The notes under the pieces are model-generated. The model did no database searches and had not been told where the DNA came from. It saw only the letters and a program-made list of their open reading frames with translations. Source: Ornithinibacter sp. (GTDB taxonomy: Bacteria > Actinomycetota > Actinomycetes > Actinomycetales > Dermatophilaceae). From it: 64,000 bases of DNA. Of the stretch, positions 12,819 to 38,868 are shown in pieces. The DNA lies in assembly GCA_029266735.1 (NCBI GenBank), contig JAQSWG010000015.1, forward strand, positions 1 to 64,000. Reading direction: 5' to 3'. Within the stretch, counting starts at the first letter, position 1, and each line of letters begins with the position of its first letter. The translations under genes and the position numbers were made by a program.

Positions 12819-13646
12819 TCAGCGGCGCCGCTGGCAGCGGCCGCACCAGAAGAGGTTGCGACCCCCGACGAGGCGGGTCCGGACCTTGGAACCGCAGACG
12901 CGGCACGGCATACCTGGCCGCTTGTATACGTAGGACGAGCGCTCCGGGAGGTGCGGAACCTCACCCCGTCCGAGGGCCGCCTCGACCTCGAGCACCTCCT
13001 CCTCGATCGTCACGATCCGACCGGTGGCGACACCGAGGGGCAGGAGGCGGAGGAGGTCGGCCCAGACGGCCTCCCACGACCGGCGGCGCAGGAGACGGCC
13101 CTCGGTGAAGGGGTTCAGCCGGTGGCGGTAGAGGATCTCGCAGCGGTAGACGTTGCCGACGCCGGCGACCACGGCCTGGTCCATGAGCAGCTCCGCGACG
13201 GTGCGCGACGATCGGGAGATCCGGGCCCAGGCAACGGCCGGGTCGGCGTCGGGGCGCAGCGGGTCGGGCCCGAGGCGGGCCAGCACGGCGTCGACGTCCT
13301 CCGGCGAGGCGACCTGGCAGAGGTTGGGCCCCCGCAGGTCCGCGACGTGGGCGTCCGTGCGCAGCCTGACGCGCACCGCGCCCACGGCAGGGACCTCGGC
13401 GGTCCACTCGTGGCTGTCGACGGTGAACGACCCGATGAGCCCGAGGTGCACGTGCAGCCAGCGGTCGTCGGCGAACTCGACGAAGAGGTGCTTACCCCGT
13501 GAGGTGGCCCGGAGCAGCTCGCGTCCCGAGAGCAGCGCCGCTCCCTCGGTGAACTTGCCCTGCGGGCTCGACACCTCGGGCGACGTCCCGGCGAAGGCCT
13601 CGTGGAGGTCGCGGGCGAGCGCGAACAGCGTGTGGCCTTCGGGCAT
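12819..13646 (-). CDS. Fpg/Nei family DNA glycosylase (endonuclease VIII-like)
   Basis: Starts MPEGHTLFALARDL; zinc finger CRVCGSKVRTRLVGGRNLFWCGRCQ; MDQAVVAGVGNVYRCEILY. Confidence 0.93.
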   Translation of the reverse strand: MPEGHTLFALARDLHEAFAGTSPEVSSPQGKFTEGAALLSGRELLRATSRGKHLFVEFADDRWLHVHLGLIGSFTVDSHEWTAEVPAVGAVRVRLRTDAHVADLRGPNLCQVASPEDVDAVLARLGPDPLRPDADPAVAWARISRSSRTVAELLMDQAVVAGVGNVYRCEILYRHRLNPFTEGRLLRRRSWEAVWADLLRLLPLGVATGRIVTIEEEVLEVEAALGRGEVPHLPERSSYVYKRPGMPCRVCGSKVRTRLVGGRNLFWCGRCQRRR

Positions 13647-13667: not shown

Positions 13668-13833
13668 GGGGTGCCAGGGGCGCGAGGGGTCGCGCGTCCG
13701 GCACCCTCGCTGTGGGTCACCCCCTCACGTGGGGTGCCAGGGGCGCGAGGGGGCGCGCGTCCGGCACCCTAGCCGAGGGTCAGCCCCTCGCGTGGGGTGC
13801 CAGGGGCGCGAGGGGGCGCGCGTCCGGCACCCT
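13668..13833. repeat. Array 1: three copies of a ~40-nt palindromic-ended repeat with exact 63-bp period (copies 13668, 13731, 13794)
   Basis: GGGGTGCCAGGGGCGCGAGGGGGCGCGCGTCCGGCACCCT repeated; spacers also similar to each other. Confidence 0.95.
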
Positions 13834-13840
13834 CTGTGGG

Positions 13841-14029
13841 TCAGCGCTCCTGGGACGCGCGCAGGATCCGCAGGGCCTTGGGTCCGAAGCCGTGCAGCGC
13901 GAGGAGGTCGCGGTCGGACGCGGCGTCGACGGCATCCCACGTCGTGATGCCCGCCGCGGCGAGGGCCCGCCGGGCGGGGGCTCCGATGGCATCCACCTCG
14001 TGGGGTGGGAGTGCCCGCTCGCCGGCCAC
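13841..14029 (-). CDS. Small helix-hairpin-helix protein
   Basis: AAGITTWDAVDAASDRDLLALHGFGPKALRILRASQER resembles an HhH domain. Confidence 0.6.
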   Translation of the reverse strand: MAGERALPPHEVDAIGAPARRALAAAGITTWDAVDAASDRDLLALHGFGPKALRILRASQER

Positions 14030-15192: not shown

Positions 15193-16940
15193 TCAGAAGG
15201 GCGGCGGGCCGTGGGCGACGCCCAGGACGCGGTGTCGCGCGCGGACGGCCCGCAGATCCGACGCGGTCGTGCAGCGCCGATGGGGCGGGCGGTGCTCGAG
15301 CAGCAGCTCGACGTGCGTTTCCAGGGCGCTCCATGGCGGTGCCGGGGCGGTGTCGACAGTCTCCGCCGCGTCGCGGCCGTCCGTCGTGTCGCCGGTGTGC
15401 AGGGCGCCGCTCCTCCCTGCCTCCGGCCCCAGCACCAGGGCGTCCAGGGCGTCGAGCGCAGAGGTGGTGCGCCTCCGGCCGCCCGGGTCGGTCCAGGTCG
15501 CCGTGCCGTCCCTGGCCAGCCGTACGCTCCACCCCGGGGACTGCTTCACGCGGTGGTGACGGCGGCAGAGGCACATGAGGTTCACCGCCTGGGTCGACCC
15601 GGCGGGCCAGCGACGCGCGTGGTCGAGGTCGCAGAACCGGGCCGCGACCGCGCAGCCCGGGAAGCGGCACCGGCCGTCACGTGCGCGGACCAGCGCCACG
15701 AGGGAGGCGCTGGGACGGTAGGAAGTGGTCGCCAGGTCGTTCGCTGCATCGAGCCGGGCCCCGCTGAGCGGGTCGCACGCCGCGACGGTCTGGTGCGGTC
15801 GCTCTCCGGCGCCACTCGTGCTCCGCAGCGAGGACGTGGCCAGGTGATCGCGGAGCCAGCCGCGAGGGACGAGGAGCGGCTCGGACGGCCTGGCCCCCTG
15901 CACCTCGACGAGGTCGTCGCCCCTCAGGGGGCGGCGTGGAGTCGAGGTTCTGCTCGGTGCGGACCCGCGCGGCGCGTCCACAGCCAGGCCATCGACCGTC
16001 GCCGACGGGACGGCCCGGAGGGCATCTCCTGCGTCGTCAACGACCGGCGCCGACACCGTCGAGGCCTCGGCGGGCGTCACGGTGGCCGGCACGGTGAGCA
16101 CAACGTCGACGTCGACGGTTGCGTTTCCGGTGACGAGGTCGGTGAGGCCCTTGCCGCGGGCCTGCTCGACCGACGAGCACATCCCGCTGCTGACCAGTTC
16201 ATGAGCCAGGCGGTCGACGGCGGCCCAGGCCACCGCAGCCTCCTCGCTGGGAAAGGTGCCGACCAGGCATCCACGCCCGGTTCCGCCACCCACCGGCGTA
16301 AACCCGTCGACGACCGAGCCCGATCGGCGCGCTGCCGGAGCAGGTCTGGCGAGATGCGAGCCAGCAGCCGACGAGTGCGTCGGCGCAAGGTCGGGGCGTC
16401 GGCGTCGAGGTGCGGGTCGAGAGCGGTCACGACCGCTTCGGTGACGGCCGCGGGAGCGCCCTCCAGCTCGTGCGCGACCACACCGGCGCGGTAGCCGTCG
16501 AGACGGCCAGCGGCCATCGCGGTGTGGAGCGCGTGCAGCCCGCTGTCCTCCGGCGGTGCTCCCTCGTCCGCCTCCACGGGCACTCGGCCCGCGGCGAGGC
16601 GCACGGCCTGCTCCATCCGGAGCTGCGCCTGTGCGTGCGATGCCCCGAGCACCGGGGCCGCGACGTCGGCCGCGTCGACGGTCACCCGCCCGGGGGCGTG
16701 GACCGCCTCACCGACGGTGCCGTCCTCACGCCACACACACTCCCGCCGAGCCGCCTCGGCCAGGGCGAGGTCCTGGACGGCCGTCACGGTGTTGATCAGC
16801 GACTGGCAGTCGGCGGCCACATCCAACCAGTCGCCTCGGGACCGGCCCGACGAGCCCTTCCCCAGGGAGGCGACGACGCCGTGTGCCGATGCCCGCACGG
16901 CATCCGCGAGCATGCCGCCACTCCTGCTCGTGGTCGTCAT
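15193..16940 (-). pseudogene. DUF222/HNH endonuclease domain protein, frameshifted near 16258
   Basis: N-part 16940 down to ~16258 ends ...GLRRWVAEPGVDAW; the continuation LGTFPSEEAAVAWAAVDRLAHELV...CRFPGCAVAARFCDLDHARRWPAGSTQAVNLMCLCRRHHRVKQ lies in another frame, consistent with 1 missing nt. Confidence 0.85.
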
Positions 16941-35639: not shown

Positions 35640-36803
35640 CTAGAGCTCGATGTCACACGAGCCGGCGACGGCGTTGACGCAGGTCTGCACGGGCAGCTCG
35701 TCGCCGGGCTCGACGAGGGTGATGTCCCCGGTGCGCAGGTCGCGCACCGCGCCCTGTCGCATCGTGACGACGCAGCCGAAGCAGATGCCCATCCGGCATC
35801 CGCTCGGCATGAGCACGCCGGCCTCCTCGCCGGCGTCGAGGATCGGGGTGCTGCCGTCGGCGTCCACGGTCACGTCGCTGGTGAGGAAGGTGATCTCGCC
35901 GCCCTCGCCCGGCTCCACCACCGTCGGACGGAACCGCTCGGTGTGCAGGCGGTCGGCGACGCCGGCGTCGGCCCAGTGCCTCTCCGCGGCATCGAGCAGG
36001 CCGGTGGGGCCACAGGTCCACGTCTCGCGCTCGCGCCAGTCGGGCACGAGGAGGTCGAGTCGCGCGAGGTCGAGGACCCCGTGCTCGTCGTCGAGGTTGA
36101 CCGAGAGCGCGAGGCGACCGCTTGCGGCATACGCCTCGAGCTCCCGCGCGAAGATGACGTCCCCGGCGGTGGGCGAGCAGTGCACCTGGGCGACGTCCGC
36201 GAGCTCGCCGAGGTGGTTGCGCAGCATCCCTATGACGGGCGTGACACCGCTGCCGGCGGTGAGGAAGAGGACCTTCGCGGGGGCCGGGCTGGGGATGGTG
36301 AAGTCCCCGGTCGCCTGGTCGAGCATGACGAGGGTGCCGGCGCGCGCCTCACGCACGAGGTGGGTGGAGACCTTGCCGTCGGGGATCGCCTTGGTCGTGA
36401 TGGCGATGCAGTCCTTCGGGATGCCGGCGGCCGGCGAACCGTCCGCGCGGTGGGTCAGGCTGTAGGCGCGCCAGTGGCGGACGCCGTCGATGTCGATCCC
36501 GACCCGGATGTACTGACCGGGCACGTGTCCCAGCCACCCGCGGCCGGGGCGGATCACCACGGTGACGGCGTCGGCGGTCTCTGGGCGGATCTCGACGATC
36601 CGGCCTCGGAGGTCGGCGCCGGAGCGGAGCGGGTCCAGGAGGTCGAGGTAGTCCTCGGGGACGAGGGGTGTCGCGAGCAGCTCGGCGACCCGGCGGCCGC
36701 TGCGCAGGAGAGTGCGGACCGGGCCGGGTGCCGTGGGGGCGCCCAGGCGCGGACGGGTCACCCCAGGGGCGGGGCCTGGTCGGGCGACAGCAGGTGCACT
36801 CAC
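35640..36803 (-). CDS. Ferredoxin reductase with C-terminal 2Fe-2S ferredoxin domain (desaturase partner)
   Basis: GQYIRVGIDIDGVRHWRAYSLT, LTAGSGVTPVIGMLR, TCGPTGLLDAAE, PSGCRMGICFGC...VQTCVNAV. Confidence 0.93.
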   Translation of the reverse strand: MSAPAVARPGPAPGVTRPRLGAPTAPGPVRTLLRSGRRVAELLATPLVPEDYLDLLDPLRSGADLRGRIVEIRPETADAVTVVIRPGRGWLGHVPGQYIRVGIDIDGVRHWRAYSLTHRADGSPAAGIPKDCIAITTKAIPDGKVSTHLVREARAGTLVMLDQATGDFTIPSPAPAKVLFLTAGSGVTPVIGMLRNHLGELADVAQVHCSPTAGDVIFARELEAYAASGRLALSVNLDDEHGVLDLARLDLLVPDWRERETWTCGPTGLLDAAERHWADAGVADRLHTERFRPTVVEPGEGGEITFLTSDVTVDADGSTPILDAGEEAGVLMPSGCRMGICFGCVVTMRQGAVRDLRTGDITLVEPGDELPVQTCVNAVAGSCDIEL

Positions 36804-36812
36804 GTACCCGAG

Positions 36813-36850
36813 CGTAACCTACGTGACCGTAACCTACGAAAACGTAACCA
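36813..36850 (-). promoter_or_regulatory. Candidate operator: three 15-bp direct repeats upstream of reductase/desaturase operon
   Basis: CGTAACCTACGTGAC CGTAACCTACGAAAA CGTAACCACAG; GTAACC starts at 36814, 36829 and 36844. Confidence 0.7.
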
Positions 36851-36897
36851 CAGGTTCGTCTCAGCGCGCGATGGGTGCTGGTGGGTGCTCCGAGTGA

Positions 36898-37122
36898 GGT
36901 GCCAAGGGGGCGGTGGAGCGCGCGTCTGGCACCCCTGTATCGGCTGGGTGCTCCCGGTGGGGTGCCAAGGGGGCGGTGGGACGCGCGTCTGGCACCTCGG
37001 ATGCGGATGTCGCGCAGGTCAGGGGTGCCAAGGGGGCGTTGGAGCGGCGTCTGGCACCTCGGGTCCTGGTGTCGCGCGGGTTGAGGGGTGCCAAGGGGGC
37101 GGTGGAGCGCGCGTCTGGCACC
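36898..37122. repeat. Array 2: four copies of a 35-36-nt palindromic-ended repeat with exact 63-bp period (36898, 36961, 37024, 37087)
   Basis: GGTGCCAAGGGGGCGGTGGAGCGCGCGTCTGGCACC; terminal GGTGCCA/TGGCACC inverted repeat; same core as array 1. Confidence 0.95.
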
Positions 37123-37224
37123 CATCCGCTGACCCCTCCGGGCGGGGGTCCGCCATCTGTTGTGCATCCGCCCGCGAGGAGGTGTGCCCGAAGGGACCTG
37201 GTGGCCCGCTGTGGCGACGGCTCG

Positions 37225-38868
37225 TCAGTGGTCCCCCGCCATGAGTCGGCCGATCTCGGTGCGGTCGGCGCTGACGCAGGCCATCTCGGCGACGACCTTG
37301 CCGCCGTGGACCACCGCGACGCGGTCGGCGAGCGACAGGATCTCGTCGAGCTCGGCGGACACAAGCAGCACGCCCGCACCAGCGTCGCGGGCGTCGACGA
37401 TGCGGCGGTGGATGAACTCGATCGACCCCACGTCGACGCCACGGGTGGGCTGCGCCGCCATGAGCAGCTTCGGCGTGAACGACATCTCGCGCGCGACGAC
37501 GACCTTCTGCTTGTTGCCACCGGAGAGCGAGGCCGCAGTCTGTCCGACGCTCGAGGAGCGGATGTCGAACTCCGCCCGCACCTTCTCGGCGTACTCGCGG
37601 ACGGCGTCGAACTGCCGCACGCCGCTCTTGGCGTAGGGCGGCTGGTCGAACTCGTTGAGCACGAGGTTGTCGGCGATGGAGTATGCCGCGACGAGCCCGT
37701 GCTTCTCGCGGTCCTCCGGGATGTGGCCGACCCCGGCGTGGTGCGTCTGGTGGGGGTTGGCCTTGGTGAGGTCCAGGTCACCCAGCCGCATGCTGCCCGA
37801 GACCACCTTGCGCATCCCGGCGAGGGCCTCGACGAGCTCGCGCTGGCCGTTGCCCTCCACGCCGGCGACACCGACGATCTCGCCGGCCCTCACCTCGAGG
37901 CTGAAGCCGTTGACCGCGGGCAGGTCGCGGTCGTCCTTGACGTGGAGGTCCTCGATGGCCAGGACGGTCTCGCCCGGCGTCGCCTCCTCCTTGTCGATGG
38001 ACAGGACGACCTCGCGGCCCACCATGAGGGTGGCGAGCTCGCGGGCGTCGGTGTTCTTCGTCTCGACCTCGCCGCAGACGGTGCCCTGGCGAAGGACGTA
38101 GACCCGGTCCGAGACCGCGAGCACCTCGCGCAGCTTGTGGGTGATGAAGACGATCGAGGTGCCGGAGGCCGCCAGCTCCTTCATGACGCCGAGCAGCTCG
38201 TCGGTCTCCTGGGGGGTGAGGACCGCGGTCGGCTCGTCGAGGATGAGCAGGTCGACCTTGCGCGAGAGGGCCTTGAGGATCTCGACGCGCTGCTGGGTGC
38301 CGACCGGCAGGTCCTCGACCTCGGCGTCGGGGTCCACGGCCAGCCGGTGCTTCGCGGCGAGCGTGCGCACCATCTCGCGGGCGCTCTCGATGTCGAGCAT
38401 GGCCCCGGCCCGGGTCGGCTCGTGGCCCAGCATCATGTTCTCGGCGACGGTCATCACCGGGACGAGCTGGAAGTGCTGGTGGACCATGCCGATGCCGCGC
38501 CGGATCGCGTCGTGCGGGCCCGAGATCGGCGTGGTGTCGCCCTGGACGCTCACCGTGCCGGCATCCGGGGTGATGAGGCCGAAGATCTGGTTGACGAGGG
38601 TCGACTTCCCCGCCCCGTTCTCACCGAGCAGGGCGACGATCTCGCCGCGACGGACGGTGAAGCTGATGTCGCGGTTGGCCCTGACCCGGCCGAAGCTCTT
38701 GGACAGGCCGGTGATGTCGAGCACCACCTCGCCGACGACACCTTCGCCGAAGCCGGATATCTCCGGCGGCAGCTCGCGGACGGCATCCGTCGTCGCGATG
38801 GCCTCGAGGTGGTCGGGTCGGGTGTCCGCGGGTGCCGGGCGAGGGTCGTACTCGATCTCTTCGGGCAT
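37225..38868 (-). CDS. Nucleoside ABC transporter ATP-binding protein (two ATPase domains, BmpA/NupO type)
   Basis: LLGENGAGKSTLVNQIFGLITPDAG; VHQHFQLVPVMTVAENMMLG; LSGGNKQKVVVAREMSFTPKLLMAAQPTRGVDVG. Confidence 0.93.
   Translation of the reverse strand: MPEEIEYDPRPAPADTRPDHLEAIATTDAVRELPPEISGFGEGVVGEVVLDITGLSKSFGRVRANRDISFTVRRGEIVALLGENGAGKSTLVNQIFGLITPDAGTVSVQGDTTPISGPHDAIRRGIGMVHQHFQLVPVMTVAENMMLGHEPTRAGAMLDIESAREMVRTLAAKHRLAVDPDAEVEDLPVGTQQRVEILKALSRKVDLLILDEPTAVLTPQETDELLGVMKELAASGTSIVFITHKLREVLAVSDRVYVLRQGTVCGEVETKNTDARELATLMVGREVVLSIDKEEATPGETVLAIEDLHVKDDRDLPAVNGFSLEVRAGEIVGVAGVEGNGQRELVEALAGMRKVVSGSMRLGDLDLTKANPHQTHHAGVGHIPEDREKHGLVAAYSIADNLVLNEFDQPPYAKSGVRQFDAVREYAEKVRAEFDIRSSSVGQTAASLSGGNKQKVVVAREMSFTPKLLMAAQPTRGVDVGSIEFIHRRIVDARDAGAGVLLVSAELDEILSLADRVAVVHGGKVVAEMACVSADRTEIGRLMAGDH

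Follow-up and report, generated by a model that had tools for sequence, protein, structure and literature searches.

Two hairpin arrays in the window

The window, which is the whole 64,000-nucleotide stretch of Ornithinibacter sp. DNA that was analysed, contains two arrays of short hairpins. Array 2 consists of four hairpins of 35-36 nt that start at positions 36898, 36961, 37024 and 37087, with every step being 63 bp, and the units of array 1 start at 13670, 13733 and 13796 with the same step. These starts and their exact spacing, already given in an initial annotation, were verified in the sequence, and both arrays are also reported by Tandem Repeats Finder. As the annotation had placed them, each is intergenic, with minus-strand genes on both sides. 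The features are the following:

12819..13646, minus strand: gene left of array 1, a putative Nei/MutM-like glycosylase by sequence
13670..13705, plus strand: array 1 hairpin unit 1 (sequence, covariance model)
13733..13768, plus strand: array 1 hairpin unit 2 (sequence, covariance model)
13796..13831, plus strand: array 1 hairpin unit 3 (sequence, covariance model)
13841..14029, minus strand: gene right of array 1, a 62-aa open reading frame with an HHH_5 score under the curated cut-off
35640..36803, minus strand: Fer2/FAD-binding oxidoreductase gene, 5′ end towards array 2
36880..36897, plus strand: upstream flank of array 2, source of the end of linker 1
36898..36933, plus strand: array 2 hairpin unit 1 (36 nt; sequence, covariance models R1/R2)
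36934..36960, plus strand: array 2 linker 1
36961..36996, plus strand: array 2 hairpin unit 2 (sequence, covariance model)
36997..37023, plus strand: array 2 linker 2
37024..37058, plus strand: array 2 hairpin unit 3 (35 nt; sequence, covariance model)
37059..37086, plus strand: array 2 linker 3 (28 nt), similar to linker 2 and to the linkers of the orthologous array in the relative G001
37087..37122, plus strand: array 2 hairpin unit 4 (sequence, covariance model)
37225..38868, minus strand: ABC transporter ATPase gene, 3′ end towards array 2

Units 1 and 4 of array 2 equal the 36-mer quoted in the initial annotation, and unit 2 has GA in the loop where the 36-mer has AG. Unit 3 has a 1-nt deletion and a G-to-T change, and the 63-bp step is kept nonetheless. 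It had been claimed that base 7 differs between the arrays in a way that preserves pairing. This is correct for array 2, where an A-T pair is formed, but array 1 has A7 opposite C30, which becomes a G-U wobble on the minus strand only. Just upstream of the FNR gene, at 36813-36849, there are also repeated CGTAACCTACG-type motifs, conserved in the relatives G002 and G003, which are probably an operator or promoter.

Hairpin anatomy and copies in the genome

The unit is an imperfect palindrome of 36 nt. Inside the outer stem, GGTGCC/GGCACC, come a purine/pyrimidine stretch and an inner stem, GCGCG/CGCGC, with a loop of 6 nt. Positions 10 and 27 form a conserved mismatch, and flanking G/C often lengthens the stem, to approximately 44-48 nt. 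The initial annotation had suggested a genome-wide pattern search, a covariance model and a comparison of unit number between strains. In the genome (3.16 Mb in 161 contigs), the pattern GGTGCC-N24-GGCACC occurs 21 times versus 2 for its reversed control, and covariance models place about 41 units on 12 contigs, at 13 intergenic sites; most arrays have steps of 61-65 bp. Between this genome and G001, orthologous arrays vary in how many units they have and, in one case, in step: C107 has six units here at a step of 63, and its orthologue in G001 (C95) has three at 73-74. No clean empty site was found in this comparison. Contig ends were seen to fall on arrays both here (C77, C107, C105 and C29) and in G001 (C11, C36, C48, C95, C101 and C113), and thus the true arrays may exceed their assembled length.

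In size and dispersal, the units resemble REP/BIME elements: they measure 36-40 nt, are intergenic and number about 41 in this genome and 86 in G061. A search of Rfam gave no family at the gathering threshold. Units within one genome show no covariation beyond that of shuffles; with relatives added, both pairing (1/500 shuffles) and covariation (4/500) are above control. The outer stems of the relatives vary, with GGGGCC/GGCCCC and GGGGTC/GACCCC as examples.

Genomic placement and orthologous sites in relatives

The same hairpins are dispersed at intergenic sites and are mostly 3′-facing. Among 53 loci, with genes predicted by a home-made codon-usage finder, 15 lie between convergent genes, 2 between divergent genes and 24 between co-directional genes. 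In these co-directional gaps, the array is closer to the upstream stop codon in 19 of the 24, and all reliably placed arrays are intergenic. In G003, chromosomal clustering of the hairpins was noticed by eye. Two different hairpins adjoin tRNA-like sequence, 74 bp apart in G001 (C24, L325) and about 79 in this genome (C145, L355).

Array 1 is wholly missing from the complete genome of G003, where some 9 bp separate the two genes that flank it here; no clean target site duplication is readable at this empty site at the roughly 81-83% identity of the two sequences. Array 2 is missing from G002 and G003 and is found in G001, whose contigs break within it. Where a relative lacks array 2, a GC hairpin follows the ABC gene. 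At the corresponding place in G003 (C1, between 2316917 and 2318380; L128), an extra ATPase-like gene was observed.

A nuclease-like gene bracketed by matching hairpins

A search for shared neighbours found one protein type beside the hairpins in several genera. In the present genome, this partner gene is outside the window and is flanked by the arrays of C107 and C77. The end of C107 shares 99 identical nt with the start of C77, and the joined contigs contain a single open frame that is preceded by an array of 6 units and followed by one of 7 units. R2 hairpins are also present at both sides of the gene in G003, G010, G019, G064 (H. xanthopallidus), G020 and G170.

The protein type has an AbiEi-like winged-helix N-terminal region fused to a DUF559 nuclease-like C-terminus. 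The AbiEi domain, of the AbiEi_4 type, scores under the curated cut-off of PF13338 and is matched by the AbiEi models of PADLOC with E-values down to 5e-11. The C-terminus appears to be a nuclease of the DUF559 PD-(D/E)XK-like kind, an assignment made on weak domain scores, with one member above the DUF559 cut-off (21.4 versus 20.6 bits), the rest below it, and a match to PvuRts1I at E = 0.033. The motif E..D..ExD is invariant in 14 members. No match to the partner nuclease was found in plasmids.

A sequence-independent palindrome search revealed that the hairpins on the two sides of other members of this protein family are of different types, for example CGAGGTA..TACCTCG, GTACGAC..GTCGTAC and GTGTGTGAAG..CTTCACACAC, the left one matching the right one. 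For 50 genes, 20 of them from genomes chosen for R2 hairpins and 30 selected mainly by protein similarity alone, the left-right match adds to 849, versus 544 +/- 19 after permutation (z = 16), and none of 135 control genes reaches a match score of 21. About 10 of the 50 have no matching hairpin pair. Across the bacterial family, genes of the AbiEi-DUF559 type are bracketed by matching, gene-specific hairpins. Such a pair also surrounds the gene in MT837139.1, a record from a phage collection that was found by protein similarity alone. This record (L362) is an unverified 'Bacteriophage sp.' from human faeces with 74% GC, and it may be a piece of an actinobacterial chromosome. As a further observation, the nuclease cassette adjoins an apparent ribosomal protein L31 gene (rpmE) in many genera and in either orientation (L178, L179, L180, L184, L211 and L084); in G003, it is not beside rpmE and sits elsewhere.

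Hairpin type and protein clade co-evolve. In a tree of 39 proteins, the hairpin type changes 4 times, where the minimum is 3 and the shuffled mean is 18.2 (0/200 shuffles), and several genomes (G019, G010, G020, G061 and G074) carry two paralogs that are associated with separate hairpin types. The second hairpin family, CGAGGTA-N26-TACCTCG, reaches up to 86 copies per genome, while its reversed control gives 0 in 60/60 genomes. Of the 12 genomes in which it reaches 5 copies or more, ten hold a gene of the protein family beside such hairpins, the evidence being one-sided or partly under the score threshold in three of the ten (G018, G032 and G029). In G025 and G058, which carry this hairpin family, the matching gene was not found.

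The 63-bp step and array growth

The period recurs in hairpins of unrelated sequence in other genera, where the step is again 61-66 bp. For instance, an unrelated 40-nt hairpin in G074 shows steps of 63 (14 times), 64 (4 times) and 74 (once), with nine copies exactly 63 apart. The initial annotation had regarded the period as conserved over diverged sequence and had suspected a propagation mechanism; this recurrence bears out the former and points towards the latter, and the REP-like comparison made there is apt.

Linkers combine a prefix of the downstream flank with a suffix of the upstream flank (identity 0.67 versus 0.46, z = 8.6). The clearest matches are 22/23, 22/24 and 22/23, and linkers differ among loci. 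In array 2, the last 18 nt of linker 1 are identical to the upstream flank (36880-36897) at 14/18 positions, with a shuffle P of 0.0002. The split between prefix and suffix varies (15/8, 10/14 and 3/20) and the sum is constant. Since linkers are fused local flanks, an array gains units through tandem duplications whose length is almost fixed, and not by transmission of one inherited linker. The duplication, of 61-66 bp and most often 63, takes in the hairpin and local flank at a varying offset. CRISPR mimicry, which the initial annotation had mentioned, is wrong: the spacers of a CRISPR array are unique and foreign, whereas here the apparent spacers are duplicated local flank. No cas gene was noticed among the genes beside the arrays.

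A list of 36 array values, in which G001 C29 contributes each of its two steps and C107 is counted as well as its orthologue C95, has 29 at 61-66, 4 at 74 and 3 at 83-85. These steps, about 10.5 bp apart, are suggestive of helical phasing (P ~1e-4), a pattern noticed post hoc and with exceptions at 69, 79 and 50 bp. The exceptions are a step of 69 in C138 of this genome, one of about 79 in its C145 where G001 has 74, and the 14-nt linkers (a step of about 50 bp) of G019 and H. xanthopallidus. In G061, 55 sampled copies include a single pair.

Proposed explanation and known systems

Array 2 is probably a tandem cluster of a dispersed palindrome that is cognate to an AbiEi-DUF559 protein encoded elsewhere in the genome. 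We infer that binding of this protein to the hairpins causes them to duplicate and spread. The winged helix would bind the two inverted arms of the hairpin, as AbiEi binds paired inverted repeats, and two protein copies on one hairpin would place their nuclease domains at the flanking DNA, which would be nicked nearby. Repair would then add a tandem copy of about six helical turns and, less often, place one at a new site. The spacing might follow from the geometry of the protein on the DNA, or selection might favour paired hairpins that share one face of the helix. That the offset varies argues against simple nicks at a fixed distance from the hairpin. Perhaps the distance between breaks is fixed and their position free; otherwise, duplications might be of many lengths at first, with those that leave the hairpins in phase being retained. 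A protein-binding array, which had been among the initial suggestions, is possible at the DNA level.

The closest parallel is the RAYT-REP system, with its REPtrons and BIMEs (PMC2817692). There, too, a nuclease gene is bracketed by palindromes of which many are dispersed at intergenic sites, the palindrome type tracks the phylogeny of the enzyme, and tandem clusters are found beside the gene. In contrast, the gene described here is AbiEi-DUF559 (PD-(D/E)XK-like) and not a Y1/HUH transposase, and the defining RAYT and GTAG are absent. In BIMEs, the segments between REPs are of variable length (PMC2817692), while the present clusters are direct repeats with a near-constant 63-bp step and belong to Actinobacteria. 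In effect, the arrangement would be a REPtron run by an unrelated enzyme. Whether it represents a new class of selfish repeats seems to us about evenly balanced; in such a class, an AbiEi-DUF559 nuclease would read a clade-specific hairpin as paired half-sites, catalyse helical-turn duplications of about 63, 74 or 84 bp and seed dispersed copies, with paralogs each running their own family.

Alternative explanations

The hairpins could act in RNA, as bidirectional terminators or mRNA stabilisers at 3′ ends that would have been amplified in tandem since additional hairpins are tolerated or improve the effect. This would suit intergenic arrays at 15 convergent versus 2 divergent places with an upstream-stop bias (19/24), the pairing kept across genera and the GC hairpin behind the ABC gene in relatives that lack array 2. 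Nevertheless, the units have no U-tract, groEL has a separate hairpin of its own ahead of the array, and sense-strand G-U exceeds A-C by 42 to 22, yet by 8 to 3 when loci are counted, which is not a clear excess. Terminator prediction called none of the units terminator-like, and its sole call (37141-37154) is outside them. An RNA function, which the initial annotation had listed as structured RNA, also leaves unexplained the one bracketed protein family, the co-phylogeny and the fixed duplication length, and we consider it unlikely. Neutral slippage, in which hairpins provoke errors of replication and produce ordinary VNTR arrays with an inherited or fortuitous 63-bp step, would account for the different unit numbers of orthologous arrays in this genome and G001 and for linkers made of duplicated flank. 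Like VNTR/MIRU-type repeats, the arrays vary in unit number between close relatives. However, slippage would vary in length, whereas the same 61-66 bp arise from unrelated hairpins and flanks in several genera, and VNTR/MIRU-type repeats do not keep one unit length over unrelated sequences and different genera. This origin is rather improbable.

AbiEi proteins such as Rv2827c bind paired inverted repeats of about 23 bp in promoters with cognate specificity (PMC7319586), and the hairpins might likewise be operators of an AbiEi-like transcription factor with a large regulon. The N-terminal region is AbiEi-like, one hairpin arm has the size of such a repeat, and cognate sites flank the gene. Here, by contrast, this region is fused to a nuclease-like domain whose motif is invariant, and the sites are at both sides of the gene, shun divergent promoter regions and are dispersed preferentially at gene 3′ ends, all of which makes a regulon quite improbable. 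Finally, the units might be true REPs whose transposase has been lost, an idea encouraged by their REP-like size, dispersal and intergenic position, and by the existence of CGTC-tagged REPs without a dedicated transposase (PMC3733652). Those are also short dispersed palindromes without a RAYT; they differ from the present ones, which have no CGTC tag and do have a gene partner. Neither GTAG nor CGTC occurs at the hairpin foot in the flank columns of 57 units. A RAYT/Y1 transposase as partner was rejected: PF01797 (Y1_Tnp) has no match in this genome (G000), in the complete G003 or in G001, G002, G010 and G019, and control genomes were positive. With another gene bracketed by the hairpins and co-evolving with them, orphan REPs are highly improbable.

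Meaning of a nuclease-like partner gene

The REP-like repeats known so far either have RAYT transposases or lack any known enzyme. In the present case, such an architecture, with its co-evolution, involves an unrelated, widespread actinobacterial nuclease-like gene. In the open-access literature, which was the scope of the search, there was no report tying DUF559 to palindromic repeats, AbiEi or mobile elements; as far as the literature searched shows, the role of this gene has not been described. The function of AbiEi-DUF559 proteins becomes open to laboratory test, and the constant duplication length allows the multiplication of palindromic repeats to be approached directly and quantitatively. 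As a minor observation, the window has, at 15193-16293, an HNH/DUF222-like gene recognised by eye, which is another multi-copy actinobacterial nuclease type.
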